DNA of 64,000 bases from Glomus cerebriforme (lineage: Eukaryota > Glomeromycota > Glomeromycetes > Glomerales > Glomeraceae). Positions 7,488 through 37,022 of this stretch are shown piece after piece. How positions within the stretch are numbered: the first letter of the stretch is position 1; every line of letters begins with the position of its first letter. A program made the translations under genes and the position numbers. The stretch is from positions 43,336 to 107,335 of the forward strand of contig QKYT01000113.1 in NCBI GenBank assembly GCA_003550305.1. Direction: 5' to 3'. The notes under the pieces are model-generated. The model was given only the letters and a program-made list of their open reading frames with translations, did no database searches and was not told where the DNA came from.

Positions 7488-9686
7488 TCAAAACATTGTA
7501 TCAAAAAATGTGTCTTCTGAATCTTGAAACCATTGTAACTTTTGGGAAGAAATGGAATCATAATTCTCTTGTCCTTGAAATAAGGTGTTCATCTTATCTC
7601 TAAAAGGACTTCTCGGTTGTGAATGGGTCAAATTGTTTGAATCATATCGCTTGGTAAATGAAGATGATCCTTCCAAATCATTTACATTTGAATAATCGTG
7701 CATATCTTCATCAAGTGTACCAAAATCCAGCAAATCAACATTATCTAAACTATATTTTTTTGAGAACTCCGTGATATAGTCATTACATATGTTCATAGAA
7801 GTTGTCTCTGTTGGATCATCTTTGATTCCAAGAAGAAACTGTATATCTTCTTCGTCCCAAAAGTTTTCATAATTTTCGGAACTTGAAGAATACTCAAACT
7901 CTTCTTCAATCAAATTTTGGTTATCTTCATGCTCATTCTCAAACGTTGATTCGACATCATCTTCATTAACGAGCAAATCATCATCAGTATCAAATAATAA
8001 TTCATTGTCTTCAGATTCTAGAGCATAATCCAAATGCATTGGATTTGTATCTTTGGTTTGGTAAGAAACATCAAAACCGGCTTCGGATACATCATTTTGC
8101 GATTTAGCCGCGTCTCTCGCTTCAGCGCGGTTGTCTATTATCTCTTCGTCACTTGACGAATGCTATATAAAGGTCAAAGTACTGTACATTCCAAAATAAT
8201 AAATGACAACTAGATAACCTTACCTCAACATATGGTGCAACATGTACATTTATGTCTCTGGCGATTGTGTATAAGCCATTTTCCAAGATATTCCTGATCT
8301 GTTTCGAAGTCAGATCAGATTCTTCCTTGATATCTTGATGTAATGAGAACGATAAATTGACCCGATTACGCGTTTTCTAAAAAAAAAAAAAAAAGAAATA
8401 TATATATATATATATTTAAATAAAATCAATTATTAATTTTATTAATAGTATCAATGCAATCTTATTTTTTTTAAAAAAAACGGTATACTTGGACGAGTTT
8501 ATTAGCTTTCGACCGAAACTCATCATTAGGACTATCATTAATGATACGTGCGATAGATTTTGAGATTGTTGAAATATGCTTTGTTATAGATTGTAGTTTC
8601 TATAGCATATATGAAGAGACACAGATTCTGTTATACAAATAAAGGGTATATAAGGGTAAATAAAGGAACGCGATTTAATCATACCTCTTGGTAATTTGGT
8701 GAAAATATGAGCGGATACCGTTGCAACAATAAATTTTTTGTCAAACTTCGAAATGCCATATCAATTGCGGCAATTTCTAAAGAGTGTTCCCGCTTTTCTG
8801 TTGTTAATTTCTGTCGTAATGATGCTACGTGTGTGACGCGGGAATATCATCAAGGTCAAGGAAATGAAGAAAACGCGTAATTATTGCACGGTAATAATTA
8901 ACCGAGGAACCAAAAAGGATATCATCATTGATAGTAATCCAATTTAACATAAAAGTCAATTGAGTTAACGTTCCATGTGGTAGCTTGTTTGTCTGATCGT
9001 GAGAAATGTATGGCACAGAACATTGGCTTCCAGATGCGTATAGCCAATATTCTAATGGAACCAGTTTCAATGCGCGTATTAATATAAATCTTTTAAAATG
9101 ATTTGTAAAATATTAGAAAACTAACTTTTATTGAATTGTCGAGGTTTTATTATTGGTTCGGGTTCAATATGAGAAAATCCGAATTGTTTCCATATCTATA
9201 AATTTGAGTCAAATCCAAATTATATAATTCAAAGAAAATATATAGCGCATACCTCTATTCTACATAGACGCTTTAGTATTATACTTTCTTTTTTCGTATT
9301 AAGAGTAAATAATTTGCCGTCTATCTTGTTAATAAAGTGTTTTTAAGAGTCAAAGATACTTTTCAAACGCGTAATTAAATGTAAACCTTGGAATTTCTTC
9401 CAAAACAAGGTATTTTTAAAAAAGATATATTGACATTAAGTTTTCCCTCGGACAAAATTATGTCCATTTTTTGAATATCCTCTTCACTGAGCTGGTTCAT
9501 TGTTGGCAATAATTGTATGTTATAATCGATACTTTGAACACACGTTATTTTTAACATACTAAATGTCGACTGTTGAGTGGATTCGGCTGCTGTTTTTAGA
9601 CAGCTTGACGTTATACACAAAGTCGAAGTGCGTTCAATTGTGTGATTAGGATAGGTTTGCGTCGCAACACTTCTTCTGAAGGACAT
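7488..9686 (-). CDS. Unrecognised 551-aa protein with acidic C-terminal half
   Basis: I rebuilt eight exons on the minus strand: 9686-9387, 9324-9253, 9195-9126, 9051-8903, 8810-8685, 8599-8489, 8376-8224 and 8162-7488. All joins are GT-AG and in frame, giving 551 aa. The N-terminal half looks folded (WLYASGSQCSVPYISHDQ then FMLNWITINDDILFGSS), the middle is helical and Lys/Glu-rich (SITKHISTISKSIARIIND), and the last 220 residues are acidic and low complexity, rich in Asp, Glu, Ser and Asn. No signal peptide or membrane span. The acidic tail suggests a nuclear or chromatin-associated protein, but I do not recognise the family. It diverges from TMEM230 across a 285-bp shared promoter. Confidence 0.75.
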
Positions 9687-19407: not shown

Positions 19408-22362
19408 TTAATTTTTTTTAGGATCTTCTTTTAATGAAACAATCTTATTAAGAATATATTTATTCTCGATTTCATTATTTTCGTTAATAAAAGAATCTTT
19501 ATCAAGACAAAAATATCCAACGCGAATAGCTTGGAATCTAACAGTTTCAAAATATTTCTTCTCTAAATTGTCAAAACTTTTTGAGATGACTTGATTTAAT
19601 CCAATTTCAATTAAAGAATTAGTAGCTATTTTTAAACTATCAGGATAAATATCTTTTAAGAAACCTTCAGGATGTGCCAAAGGATTTTCTGATATAAAAA
19701 GATTATTATAAATTTTAACTTCATTTAAACGAATAGGGGATTTATGTTTTGTTGATTCTGACACCCATTGAATATATGTTTTAGGTTTTTTAACATCTAG
19801 TCCACTTTCATACTGACAAATTAAATATTCAATATTTCCTTCTGGATCTTTCTTTATGCTAGTACATGTAATACAATGGTTTACGTATAATAACCCTACT
19901 GTTTTGCCAACAGCAAGTCGAAAATAATCTGGAGAATCTTGTTCCCGAAAATCTGATTTATCGATATAAACGGTCTTACTAAATGGAACAACATGCTATA
20001 AATAAAAAAAAAGGCAATAATTATTAAATGGTAAAAATTCCTTGAAATTAGTTTTTACAATTATATTTCATATTTACCTCACCCATAGAAGGAACTTTTG
20101 GTTTGAAAGGGATTGTTAATTCCTCTATATAATCATCTGGTAAATTTTCAATTATTATCTTGATGGGATCCACAACTAACATTAACCTTGGTGCATGGGC
20201 ATCAAGATAGTCACGAACATATTTATCAAAACGTGACACTTGAATTGTAGAATTTGATGTAGTAACGCCAAGATCTTGAACAAATCCATTAATCGCTTCA
20301 GGAGGGACTCCACGTCTGCGTAAAGCTGGTAAAGTATATAATCTTGGATCATCCCATCCTTCAACATATCCTTCATTAACAAGTTTAGCAATTTTTCGTT
20401 TTGACGTTATAGTATTATTAATTTTTAACCTAGTATAAAAGAAGAAATTTAATAAAGTAGTATTCTAGTTAACGTAATTGATATTGAAATTACTTCCAGC
20501 AGAATAACAAACCTATTATATTCAAACTGAACAGGCTTATAAACTTCAAGTGCATCACAAAGCCAATAATATGATTCACGTGACATTCGAAACTCAAGAG
20601 TACAAAGTGAATGAGTGATATTTTCAAATGAATCACATAGACAGTGCGTATAATCATAGGTTGGATAAATACACCATTTATCACCAGTTCTATGGTGAGG
20701 GGTATATAAAATACGATATGCAACTAAATCCCAGAATTGAGGATTCCCACTTTGCATATCCATCTTCATGCGAATAGTAACTTGGCCTTCCTTATAACGT
20801 CCTTCTTTCATTTTCTCAAATTCAGTCAATGATTCATTAATTGGACGATTACGATGTATACACTCCCTACGTTCACCACCATCATCTCCTCCACGCATCT
20901 CATGCATCTCTTCAGGTGTACAACTACATGCATAAGCTTTGTCGCATTTTATTAACTCAATCGCCAATTCATATAGTTTATCAAAATAATCCGAGGAATA
21001 AGTGATCTTCCACGGAGAAAATCCCAACCATTCTATGGTTTCTTTAATGGAAGTAAAATATATTTCTTCTTCAGCTGATATTTTAAAAAGGAATATTCAT
21101 TAGAGTTCAAGTAGGATAAAATCAATTTTAAATTTTTCACCCAAATCAATCTCACCTTCTGGATTTGTGTCATCATATCTAATTAGATATTTGATAATTA
21201 TTAATAAGTCTATACATAAATTATTATATTATAAAATTTGAGTGCAAACCTGAGATAACAAAATCCGTTGTGAGTTTTTGCGTATCCGAAATTCACATTT
21301 ATTGCTTTAGCATGACCAATGTGCAAAAAACCATTTGGCTCAGGGGGAAACCGAGTAATTACTTTACCACCAGTTTCTTTTAAATGTTGTTCCATTAATT
21401 CAGGGTTTATTTGCTTATTTCCACCAGGCCTATGTAGTTTGGCTAATTCCCCTTCTAAGAACATATTTGGAACACTATTCCGATCGGATTTATTTGAACT
21501 AGACCCCGAAACTTTCATGTTTGGCTTTTTCTGATCAGTATCCTTTTTCTATATAAAGGAAAGAAAAAGGTTAAATTTTTGATTGATTAAACAACTCTAT
21601 CGATTTGAACACATACCTTTCCCTTAGCGAGCATATCTCTCTCATCTTTTGGTCCAATCAATGTAACAACTTGTTTTTCTAATTCCTCTTTAACTGTAAC
21701 GCCATTGGCCCATCTCAACTCAGGAATCTGTTTCGCTTGAGCTAATAATGGCCCAAGTAATTTGTACCTATCCTTTATGAGAGATTCCTTCTTAGATTCT
21801 AAAAATGAAGATATTGCATTCGAAATCCGCTCGGGTGTTACCATGACACCTAAATAAAAAAATAATTTAGACAGTGACAATTAGACAAAATTCCTAGATA
21901 TAATTTGTTAATAATAAAAAAAAAGTTTTCTACTTACCAACTCCACAAGCATTTTCAAAATCAGCATCAACTATTTCGTCTCCTGCATTTTCGGCGAATT
22001 TTATAGCGGCTATTCAATCCCTCACCATTTAGGTGAATAAAATTAGCCTATTAATATTCAAATATTCATTGGATCGTGTCGAAAAGTACCTTACCAGCAA
22101 CCTGTTCCGCAGTTTTTAACTTTTTATCGGTAATTGCGCGTGTAATATACCCCAAATGTGCGTTTGCATCTTTGGTAATAGTCGAGGCAAGTGTATAAAG
22201 TAAAGAACCAGTAGCTTTATCGCATCCTGTTTTACTAACGCCAGCTTCCGCGATCGTGGTTCGCAAAGTGGGTGCTAGCTTCTTATTTTTTGCTGTATCT
22301 TTGGCGCGTTGTTCTGTCAAACCAATTGATTGAAATAAGTTGACCAGTTCGTTATCAGCCAT
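19408..22362 (-). CDS. Cytosolic glutaminyl-tRNA synthetase
   Basis: Eight exons on the minus strand: 22362-22095, 22009-21938, 21849-21617, 21548-21250, 21178-21156 (23 nt), 21074-20513, 20429-20078 and 19995-19408; all joins in frame, 798 aa. The N-terminal ~200 residues are the eukaryote-specific GlnRS extension ([20 protein letters not shown]). Class I signatures follow: [20 protein letters not shown] contains the HIGH motif, and ITSKRKI is the KMSKS-equivalent. The C-terminal region ([20 protein letters not shown]) is the anticodon-binding domain. Function: ATP-dependent charging of tRNA-Gln. Length fits yeast (809 aa). It diverges from TMEM234, with a perfect Gcn4-type site in the shared promoter. 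Confidence 0.95.
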
Positions 22363-30591: not shown

Positions 30592-32253
30592 ATGTATAAA
30601 GCTATTATTCTTGTCGGTGGGCCTTCTCGTGGTACGAGATTTCGACCACTTTCTCTTAATGTTCCAAAACCTTTGTTTCCAGTGGCAGGTCACCCAATCA
30701 TCTGGCATCATTTGGAAGCATTGTCTAAAATTGAAGGCTTGAAAGAGGTTTTATTGATTGGGTTTTATGAGGACTCAATTTTTCAAAGATTTATTGATGA
30801 TGCTGTAAGGGAATTCCCAAAAATTAATATTCGGTAAATAAATGAATCTAATTATAATGATAAATCGCGTTAATTCAAGATTGATTAACTCTTAAAAATT
30901 TGTATTTTAGGTATCTTCGAGAGTATCAGTCCTTGGGAACTGCTGGAGGACTTTATCATTTTAGAGATGAAATTCAACGAGGTGATCCACAACAAATATT
31001 CGTACTTAATGCGGACGTTGCTTGTAGTTTTCCATTGAATGAAATGATGGAATTCCATAATAAAAATCAAGGTTTATGTACGATATTAGGTACAAAGGTA
31101 ATGTATTATAAAAGAGAGTTTATTATTTTACATTCCAATTTATAAATAAATTGTTTTATTAGGTTGCTCGTGAAGTTGCAACAAGATACGGATGTCTTGT
31201 CGCTAACCCTGAAAATAATGAAGTTTTACATTATGTTGAGAAGCCAGAAAATTTTATTTCCGATTTGATTAGTTGTGGAATCTATTTATTTGACTGTGCT
31301 ATTTTCGATGAAATGAAAAAGGCCATGCAAAATAAACAACTCCGAGTCGAGTATCCTTTTATAGCTTCTCTTTTAAAGAATAATAGGATAGGCTTAAGAT
31401 TTCCTTAACTTAATTTTATAATTTAAAGCCCAGATCAGTTAGTAGATGATAAACTTCGATTAGAGCAAGATTTATTTCGTCCATTGGCTGTATCTAAGAA
31501 ATTATTTGTCTATGTTACAAATGACTTTTGGAGACAAATTAAAACTGCTGGGTAAGTAATTATAAAATTTTAATTATCGAGTTTTATTGTTATATTAAAA
31601 CATAACCTAATTCGGCAAGCAATTTATAAAAGTTCTGCAGTTCCTGCTAATGCATTATATCTAGAACAATATTTGAAAACAAATCCTGATCGACTATTAA
31701 AAAATGAATCTGGTGGACCTACGATTGTTGGTTGTGTTTATAAACATCCTACAGCATTTGTTGATCCCAGTGCAAAGGTTTATTTCTTAATAAAATGTTT
31801 TATTTTATTCTAATTATTATTATTAATATTATACTTTGATTAGATTGGACCAAACGTAACTATAGGTCCTCGTGCAGTTGTGGGTAAAGGGGTTCGTATC
31901 AAGGATTCAATTATCCTTGATAATGTAGAGATTAAAGCGAATAGTTGTATTTTACATAGTATTATTGGGTGGGGTTCAAAAATTGGAACTTGGGCTCGCG
32001 TTGAAGGTACACCAATAACGAATGATCAAACTGTTATTACACAAAATGGTGTAAAACTTCAATCAATCACTATTCTCGGTAAGTAATATTTCAATTAAGT
32101 TTTTATTCTAATTTAATTAAGAAAATTTAACCCTCTAAGCTTTTATTTATAGCCAATGAAGTTATGGTCAAAGATGAAATTATTATTCGTAATTGTATTG
32201 TATTACCTCATAAAGAATTGAGAACTAATTGTCATAATGAAATTTTGATGTAA
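30592..32253 (+). CDS. GDP-mannose pyrophosphorylase alpha-type subunit (GMPPA)
   Basis: Seven exons (30592-30833, 30911-31097, 31163-31350, 31429-31551, 31633-31777, 31844-32078, 32153-32253), in frame, 406 aa. The N-terminal nucleotidyltransferase domain starts [20 protein letters not shown] and has [12 protein letters not shown] and [11 protein letters not shown]. The C-terminal domain is a left-handed beta-helix of hexapeptides ([40 protein letters not shown]) ending [11 protein letters not shown]. The [12 protein letters not shown] motif and 406-aa length indicate the GMPPA type rather than the catalytic GMPPB/Psa1 type. In animals GMPPA is a regulatory partner of GMPPB in GDP-mannose synthesis, feeding glycosylation and GPI anchors; a mannosyltransferase gene (GPI10) lies nearby. 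Intron 3 looks U12-type. Confidence 0.92.
31351..31428 (+). other. U12-type (minor spliceosome) GT-AG intron in GMPPA
   Basis: A 78-nt intron with donor GTATCCTTTT, a full match to the U12 5' splice-site consensus, and TTCCTTAAC at 31401-31409, a perfect U12 branch-site match about 20 nt before the acceptor. The flanking exons join in frame to give [12 protein letters not shown]. Other introns of this gene lack these motifs. Confidence 0.8.
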
Positions 32254-34850: not shown

Positions 34851-37022
34851 ATGTATCGTAAAAAAACCGACATAAATAAACAAAACGAAAATTTTATTGA
34901 AGAAAATGAAGAAAGTCCAAAAGAAAAGACATTAAACCTAATTAATAATCAAAATCGATTATTAAATTATTTAATTTTATTCAGGATAATAAATGCTATA
35001 TGTACGAAAACATATTTCAATCCCGATGAATATTGGCAATCAGTTGAAGTTGGTCATTACATAGTTTTTGGATATCCTAAACTACTTTATTGTTTTTCTT
35101 TGTCTTTGTATATTATATTATTTCTTAATAAATTTTTACATATGGATATTTGACCTGGGAGTGGAAGGAGAAAATAAGGAGTGTTGCTCATCCTTTATTA
35201 TTTGCAACTCTTTATAAAAGTTTGGCAATTCTTGGTCTCGACAAAGGAGACTTATTTGTAATATCATAATACAAAGAATTGATTGATATTTCAATGTGTT
35301 TTTATATTGATATATAATAACTCATTTTTAACTAGATATATGCTCCACGAATTTTTCAAGCAGTGTTCGCAGGTATAGGAGATTTATATACTTATCGATT
35401 AGCAAAAAAGCTATTTAATGAATCAATTGCAAATTGGGCTGTATCCTTTCTTTTCTTAGATAAAAAAAAAAAAAATTTCTTCATATTAAACTTTAATAAC
35501 ATAATAAATTTGATGCGTAATTTTTATAATAGCTTTTCTGTTCTATTATCTCTTGGTTTAATTTTTTTTGTTCAATAAGAATGTTATCAAATAGCATTGA
35601 AACAGTACTGACTACAGTAGCATTATATTATTGGCCATGGCCCTCTTTTTCAATGATTAGTTGGAATGATCGAATAAAGTATAACTTTTTTTCATGAACA
35701 TTACGACACGTATGTACTAATTACTAATTAAAAATTTATATTAATTATAAAGGACTCTACGCGTCTCGCTAACTTTAGCAGCGATTTGTTGTATTCTTCG
35801 TCCAACTAATGTTATTATTTGGGGTTTTCTCGGTATACAATTATTATGGGAAACAAAAGAACATTTTATCTCTATTATTTTGAACACGACGTTTATCACG
35901 TAAGTCCCCAAAGTATTTGTTATCTAAACCAGTATATAAATTTAATTTGTTATTTATTTTAGGATTATTGCGATTTTAACGATAGTCTTAATTGATCATA
36001 CATTTTATGGTGAAATAGTATTTGTACCGATTAACTTTTTGTATGTTAATGTAATACAATCAATTTCACTATTTTATGGTTCACATCCGTGGCATTGGTA
36101 TTTATCACAGGGTATACCATTTATCACAACCACATTATTACCGTTCATGCTTAAAGGCATATATGACATATATACCGATAAAAATTCTTTTTATCATTAT
36201 CAATCCATTAAAACGTTGGTTTGGTTAATGATACTAGTGGTATTTGGGTATAGTTTATTAAGTCATAAAGAATTTCGGTTTATATATCCGTTATTACCTA
36301 TTATGGTTATATGTGCAGGATATTGTTTACACGGAATTTCTTTGAGATATCAAAAGAAAATATTGAGAATAACAGTGATATTTTTGATAATTACTAATAT
36401 ACCATTAGCTTATTATGCGAATTTCGTACATCAACGTGGTGTTGTAGATGTTATGGATTATTTAAGAAATGAGGCCAGATTAGGAAAAGTTCGTGAAATT
36501 GGATTTTTGATGCCTTGTAACTCTACTCCTTTTTATAGTAATTTTCATTTTAATTTATCTATGTGGTATTTAACTTGTGATCCTCCTTTAATAGGGTAGG
36601 TAATTTATATAAACGACGCATTTTTTTTACACTTTTGAAATTCTAAAAATTTATTTATTTTAGTAAAGAAATTGATATTGAAAATTATGTTGATGAAGCC
36701 GATCAATTTTATGCTAATCCACATGATTTCCTTAAGAAATATTTCGAACCAATTAATTTAATATCATCTAAAGAGTCTACTATTTTAACACTTCGTAAAT
36801 GGCCAAATTATTTGATAATTTTTGAAGCATTATTAAACGATTTAAATCCTTTCCTAAAAGAATTAGATTACAGAGAGGTAAGTTGATAAAATAATAAATA
36901 ATTCTACATAATTCTACATTAATTAACTTAATCTAATAATTTAGTGTGCAAGATTTTTTAATTCACATTTTATTGATGATTGGAGAAGAAAAGGTGATGT
37001 AATAGTTTTTTGTAGAAATTAA
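34851..37022 (+). CDS. GPI mannosyltransferase III (GPI10/PIG-B)
   Basis: Eight exons (34851-35071, 35140-35257, 35336-35440, 35533-35678, 35753-35899, 35963-36595, 36664-36877, 36945-37022), in frame, 553 aa. It is a GT22-family, ER, multi-pass enzyme adding the third mannose to the GPI precursor. Signatures: KTYFNPDEYWQSVEVGHYIV with the catalytic-loop Asp-Glu, VFGYGYLTWEWKEKIRS, MLSNSIETVL, LFYGSHPWHWYLSQGIP, YSLLSHKEFRFIYPLLPIM, FVHQRGVVDVMDYL and MPCNSTPFYSN. The order and spacing align with human PIG-B, and two exon joins are only correct if introns 1 and 3 are spliced as U12-type introns. Diverges from AP-1 mu with 157 bp between starts. Confidence 0.94.
35072..35139 (+). other. U12-type AT-AC intron in GPI10
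   Basis: A 68-nt intron that starts ATATCCTAAA and ends TTTTTAC. The donor matches the U12 AT-AC core ATATCCT; TTTCTTAAT at 35121-35129 resembles the U12 branch site, with the branch A about 11 nt from the end. No AG dinucleotide occurs inside, so no ordinary acceptor is available. Removing exactly this piece gives VFGYGYLTWEW, identical in pattern to human PIG-B VFNYGYLTWEW. Confidence 0.85.
35441..35532 (+). other. Probable U12-type GT-AG intron 3 of GPI10
   Basis: Donor GTATCCTTTC follows the U12 consensus. The acceptor at 35531-35532 gives ANWA|LFCSIISWFNFFCSIR, which lines up with human PIG-B. The branch site is weak (GCGTAAT near 35514), so this rests mainly on the donor. Confidence 0.6.

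Follow-up and report, generated by a model that had tools for sequence, protein, structure and literature searches.

Minor introns in fungi

The closest described system is that of Rhizophagus irregularis, for which the main text of a broad survey reports 205 minor introns (0.272%) along with all four minor snRNAs (Larue and Roy 2023, PMC10639083). The same text reports 249 minor introns for Basidiobolus meristosporus, and states that Ascomycota and Basidiomycota are without convincing minor introns, with some other fungi having them. This agrees with the earlier note on this DNA, in which minor introns were described as rare in fungi and present in some early-diverging ones. By its own statement, the survey relies on existing annotations. 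That arbuscular mycorrhizal fungi (AMF) have many minor introns is already known from it, and the present finding is less surprising because a Glomeromycete had already been recognized as minor-intron-rich. Glomus cerebriforme, the root-dwelling soil fungus studied in this work, is like R. irregularis in belonging to the same fungal class and in its four minor snRNAs, with the R. irregularis consensus lying near those of animals and plants, but it is of another genus, and the main text of PMC10639083 contains neither "cerebriforme" nor "PIGB".

U12-type AT-AC introns were described in 2010 from Rhizopus oryzae and Phycomyces blakesleeanus, with 1 and 8–9 per genome, respectively (PMC2846911). 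Like the intron described here, these occur in early-diverging fungi, but Rhizopus and Phycomyces are of other lineages than Glomus cerebriforme, and their introns were found from ESTs. GPI10 is unmentioned in the part of PMC2846911 drawn on here. In human cells, splicing of A-type minor introns is promoted by CENATAC (PMC8280824, 2021). The Glomus intron resembles the CENATAC-dependent introns in its AT-AC termini and predicted removal by the minor spliceosome, and differs in that the CENATAC family is unmatched in this genome, as it is in every control genome. Among the papers listed and passages covered by a literature search, there was no mention of this intron, of Glomus cerebriforme, or of these gene-model scars, nothing joining PIGB with "minor intron", and nothing joining CENATAC, "A-AN" and fungi.

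The GPI10 gene and its AT-AC intron

The window, meaning the whole 64-kb stretch of Glomus cerebriforme DNA that was analyzed, contains a gene with the following features.

34851..37022, plus strand: GPI10/PIG-B gene (GPI mannosyltransferase 3), 8 exons, 553 aa, stop included
34851-35071, 35140-35257, 35336-35440, 35533-35678, plus strand: GPI10 exons 1-4
35753-35899, 35963-36595, 36664-36877, 36945-37022, plus strand: GPI10 exons 5-8
35072..35139, plus strand: AT-AC intron 1 of GPI10, very probably U12-type, phase 2, 68 nt
35072..35079, plus strand: predicted U12-type 5′ splice site ATATCCTA, 7/8 to RTATCCTT
35121..35129, plus strand: predicted U12-type branch site TTTCTTAAT, 8/9 to TTCCTTAAY; branch A probably 35128

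The 553-aa protein has one Alg9-like mannosyltransferase domain (Pfam Glyco_transf_22, PF03901; E 2.7e-104), and its name is supported by relatives from R. clarus and Gigaspora margarita, called "GPI mannosyltransferase 3", that stand among its six best matches. Its sole sequence match among solved structures is ALG9. The closest homologue among the matches listed is a 538-aa protein of Glomus cerebriforme itself (P0001), and a 15-residue deletion in the latter is the only difference visible in the alignment.

U12-type branch sites usually lie about 10–13 nt from the 3′ end of the intron. In the 68-nt intron, which begins ATATCCTAAA and ends TTTTTAC, the putative branch A at 35128 is 11 nt from the 3′ end; the 5′ site deviates from the usual at +8, with A in place of T. 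All of what the earlier note had read here, namely AT-AC termini, a length of 68 nt, the start ATATCCT, the end TTTTTAC, the absence of any internal AG, and a U12-like branch site about 11 nt from the end, is present in the sequence.

The junction itself is fixed by the protein. Excision of 35072–35139 yields VFGYGYLTWEW inside an otherwise intact 553-aa frame. When all GT-AG, GC-AG, and AT-AC pairs were enumerated (first base 35030–35139, last base no later than 35174, length at least 40 nt), 15 kept the frame free of stops, and just one of these, 35072–35139, brought back the conserved DE.WQ-to-TWE distance. This distance is precisely 20 in 111 of the best 120 homologues (of 1474), the set on which conservation of spacing was judged. 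The earlier claim of a regained conserved motif is borne out by this spacing. Its stronger form, that only exact removal restores VFGYGYLTWEW, stands insofar as this is the sole fit of the 15 pairs and falls at the level of single nucleotides, since ATAT is present at both ends of the intron and five equivalent registers (shifts 0 to +4) of the excision consequently yield the same protein. Shift 0 is the only register of the five with known splice termini. That a single pair fits the conserved protein is a direct observation, and 35072–35139 is very probably a genuine AT-AC intron, predicted from its sequence to be removed from GPI10 pre-mRNA by the minor (U12-dependent) spliceosome.

Chance expectation and genome-wide searches

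The frequency of the motif was estimated from 150 first-order Markov simulations, searched on both strands for ATATCCT followed by the branch site (no more than one mismatch) and AC. Per 64 kb, 0.33 occurrences are expected, and the window has two, at 35072–35139 and at 8922–8833 (minus strand), which makes the motif alone weak evidence. What raises the case above chance is that protein and motif independently fix the same ends. The candidate at 8922–8833, with one mismatch, was set aside since the frame there is open throughout. Also set aside was a GTATCCTTTTT match at 21538 (plus strand), which has no branch site within two mismatches and lies opposite a minus-strand gene that we take to encode glutaminyl-tRNA synthetase.

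In the genome as a whole, a strict AT-AC pattern gave 5 matches vs 2 in a reversed control, and a strict GT-AG pattern gave 5 vs 1. The frame is open across the join in all ten strict matches (5 AT-AC, 5 GT-AG). For half of the ten, the joined peptide matches a Pfam family, and in four cases the match extends across the join (importin-beta, protein kinase, Nup133-like, and Nup85). Random places in the same gene-rich loci have a median open frame of 45 codons, so that an open frame across the join is weak evidence and no proof of single cases. A loosened AT-AC pattern, one that includes 35072–35139, gave 17 matches in the genome vs 20 in the reversed control, and in view of this lack of excess no genome-wide count of AT-AC introns is claimed. 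At least two of the loosened matches (L031 and L032) were rejected as introns, as by eye they resemble uninterrupted coding sequence from a BTB-type gene.

Disturbed GPI10 models in related fungi

New in this work is the observation that public GPI10 models are disturbed at the position of the 35072 intron in 7 of 9 proteins from Glomeromycotina vs 2 of 111 others (best 120 of 1474 homologues, with proteins lacking an organism name counted among the 111). Fisher's exact test gives p = 2e-8, a value that is only a guide because three of the nine proteins come from one species. The disturbances are of several kinds. Exon sequence is skipped in P0001 of G. cerebriforme, P0005 of Funneliformis mosseae, and P0007 of Geosiphon. 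The intron is read into (YPKL...) by P0002 and P0008 of R. irregularis and P0003 of R. clarus, and the Ambispora model P0016 starts just before the intron position. Undisturbed among Glomeromycotina are P0004 of R. irregularis and P0006 of Gigaspora. The two departures among the other 111 are P0025 of Basidiobolus meristosporus, which skips sequence, and P0080, which has one extra residue.

The inserted residues are informative. For instance, P0002 and P0008 of R. irregularis hold YPKLF..., as reading into ATATCCTAAACT yields. In R. clarus, the 26 extra residues of P0003 (YPKL...IIFFT) correspond to 78 nt, starting with YPK and ending with T before YGYLTWEW (AC + A), as an AT-AC intron would give; Ambispora likewise has T before YGYLTWEW. 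As a separate observation, P0016 of Ambispora leptoticha joins a GPI10 without its N-terminus to PF17832, PF01472, and PF26292, which is perhaps an annotation fusion.

P0001 points instead to an ordinary GT-AG intron at 35049–35161 (113 nt), whose use would shorten the protein by 15 residues. The pair is present in the sequence, preserves the frame, and reproduces the P0001 sequence across the region, but it removes VGHYIVFGYGYLTWE, whose spacing holds in 111 of the best 120 homologues (of 1474), and its donor, GTTGGT, is unlike those of the five ordinary GPI10 introns, which begin GTAATA, GTATAA, GTAAGT, GTAGGT, and GTAAGT. Moreover, the breaks in the remaining disturbed Glomeromycotina models share this one position and take several forms, as would be expected of gene finders that have no AT-AC model. 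The ordinary intron is therefore very unlikely.

Returning to the AT-AC intron, the protein models of relatives suggest that it is old within Glomeromycotina, since the models of several other species skip, read into, or begin at the junction. It is somewhat more probable than otherwise that the intron is ancestral to this group and has been hidden by gene finders without an AT-AC model, which would pass over it, extend an exon into it, or begin the gene there. Perhaps it is older still, given that the Basidiobolus meristosporus model breaks at the same place.

Minor-spliceosome components in the genome

A search of the genome assembly (112.5 Mb, 1117 contigs) recovered all four minor snRNAs that the earlier note had proposed looking for, each above its Rfam gathering score: one U12 gene (70.8 bits, cut-off 53), two U11 genes (77.0 and 69.2 bits, cut-off 39), one U4atac gene that passes by a narrow margin (55.9 bits, cut-off 53), and one clear U6atac gene (77.2 bits, cut-off 33). 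Three further U6atac candidates fall under the cut-off (20.7–22.3 bits). At a lax E <= 1, U11 matched 1 of 14 control genomes, U4atac 1 of 14, and U6atac 8 of 14, none of them over the cut-off. Key elements are evident in the genes, including AAGGA in U6atac, GTAAGGA in U12, and AAGGG near the 5′ end of U11. Sm-like sites occur in U11 and U4atac, with a weaker one in U12, and the predicted U4atac–U6atac duplex is strong (-43.6 kcal/mol).

The U12 gene (L001 1411-1672) and U6atac gene (L005 1411-1640) have a AGGGTTATATAA element in common, comprising a TATA-like box at -27 and -30 and a TCCCA 34 nt before the TATA-like box. The U12 gene is followed by nine T, and the two U11 genes and U4atac show TCCCA and other TATA-like boxes with the T run absent. 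The upstream TCCCA resembles the plant upstream element. In Glomus cerebriforme, RNA polymerase III may be responsible for U12 transcription. The 5′ end of U11 is part of its pairing with the 5′ splice site, and the two U11 genes (L002 1501-1646, minus strand; L003 1501-1644) differ there, one having TAAAAGGG and the other TACAAGGG.

An origin of the snRNA genes in plant-host contamination was considered and is unlikely, because their base composition is near that of the window (25.5–28.7% GC around the five genes vs 28.1–31.1% in the window) and because the named relatives of the protein beside U12 are all from Glomeromycotina. This protein has 73 relatives, eight of them with an organism name, and we take all eight to be placed in that group; its G. 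cerebriforme match shows 65% identity over half of the query and represents a multigene family. The homology search of neighbors covered the U12 locus, and the other four snRNA loci were judged by composition and a look at their ORFs.

Five families of minor-spliceosome-specific proteins were sought (U11-48K, U11/U12-25K, CENATAC, SCNM1, and PDCD7), likewise following the earlier note, and two were found. The U11-48K CHHC finger is matched at 36.1 bits (cut-off 21.1) and carries less weight because one archaeal control genome also scored over the cut-off. The ubiquitin-like domain of U11/U12-25K is matched in two neighboring pieces (50.9 and 30.1 bits, cut-off 22.8), the second of which contains one stop. 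Searches of the genome for CENATAC, SCNM1, and PDCD7 gave zero matches, as did those of the control genomes, and intron-split genes may escape such searches. These three families are unmatched in a genome that nevertheless seems to use AT-AC introns.

Proposed mechanism of splicing

Established knowledge of minor splicing suggests how the 68-nt intron would be removed, presuming transcription of the snRNA genes. U11 would pair with the ATATCCT 5′ site and U12 with the TTTCTTAAT branch site, with the branch A bulged. U6atac would then take the place of U11 at the 5′ site, and joining of the exons at 35071/35140 would produce VFG-YGYLTWEW.

Some pairing potential for these steps is observed. The UCCU core of the 5′ site is pairable with both the U11 5′ end and the AAGGA of U6atac, and U11 pairing with this site is predicted at -8.1 kcal/mol vs -3.2 to -5.4 kcal/mol for two ordinary GPI10 introns. 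U6atac pairing does not discriminate (-4.3 for the 35072 site vs -2.8 and -6.2 for ordinary sites), and the predicted pairing of U12 with TTTCTTAAT is weak (-3.6 kcal/mol).

Major-class AT-AC introns occur in human cells according to PMC8280824, so the same 68 nt might be removed by the major (U2) spliceosome. This is most improbable, since the 5′ site, ATATCCT, carries CC at +5/+6, TTTCTTAAT is positioned 11 nt before the intron end, the five ordinary introns of the gene start differently, and the genome has all four minor snRNA genes. It is scarcely credible that the 68 nt come from misassembly, or from an insertion breaking the frame of a gene that has decayed: the length is not a multiple of 3 and the unspliced frame stops 27 codons past the junction, but elsewhere the 553-aa frame is unbroken and conserved, and relatives carry residues beginning YPKL at the same place.

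Further minor introns nearby

Besides the AT-AC intron of GPI10, two other introns in the window have U12-type features.

35441..35532, plus strand: probable second U12-type intron of GPI10, GTATCCTTT...TAATAG, phase 0, 92 nt
31351..31428, plus strand: U12-type GT-AG intron of GMPPA-like gene (a strong call), GTATCCTTTT...TTTCCTTAAC...TTTAAAG, phase 2, 78 nt

The intron at 35441–35532 is considered probable and not certain because its branch site (TGCGTAAT) is weak, with a predicted U12 pairing of -1.7 kcal/mol; it is absent from the places in the window that have a branch site within two mismatches. The R. irregularis model P0004 is without the stretch around this intron.

The minor-intron call for 31351–31428 is strong. 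The intron has a perfect TTCCTTAAC branch site and is one of the five strict GT-AG matches in the genome, and the combination of such a 5′ site with a perfect branch site occurred zero times in 150 simulated windows. The joined GMPPA-like peptide has 24 relatives, several of them named mannose-1-phosphate guanylyltransferase. Because these relatives have slightly different lengths at the join, by a few residues, and the Pfam match of the peptide stops before it, the protein cannot place this junction with single-residue precision. A 104-residue GMPPA-like fragment from an 831-nt contig (P0143, ENA) turns to YPLID... after NKHQVG, a change that could reflect read-through into a GTATCCTTTA-type intron close to where the 31351 intron lies. 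Counting the probable intron at 35441–35532, three minor introns lie within 4.2 kb.

Implications for arbuscular mycorrhizal fungi

Arbuscular mycorrhizal fungi now have a second genus in which an AT-AC minor intron, very probably genuine, is described together with genes for all the minor snRNAs. At this intron, several public AMF gene sets carry a disturbed model of a conserved GPI-anchor pathway gene, and surveys based on annotation can consequently miss AT-AC introns. If the same is true for other genes, such surveys would undercount the AT-AC minor introns of early-diverging fungi, and the scars left in deposited proteomes could be used to find them.
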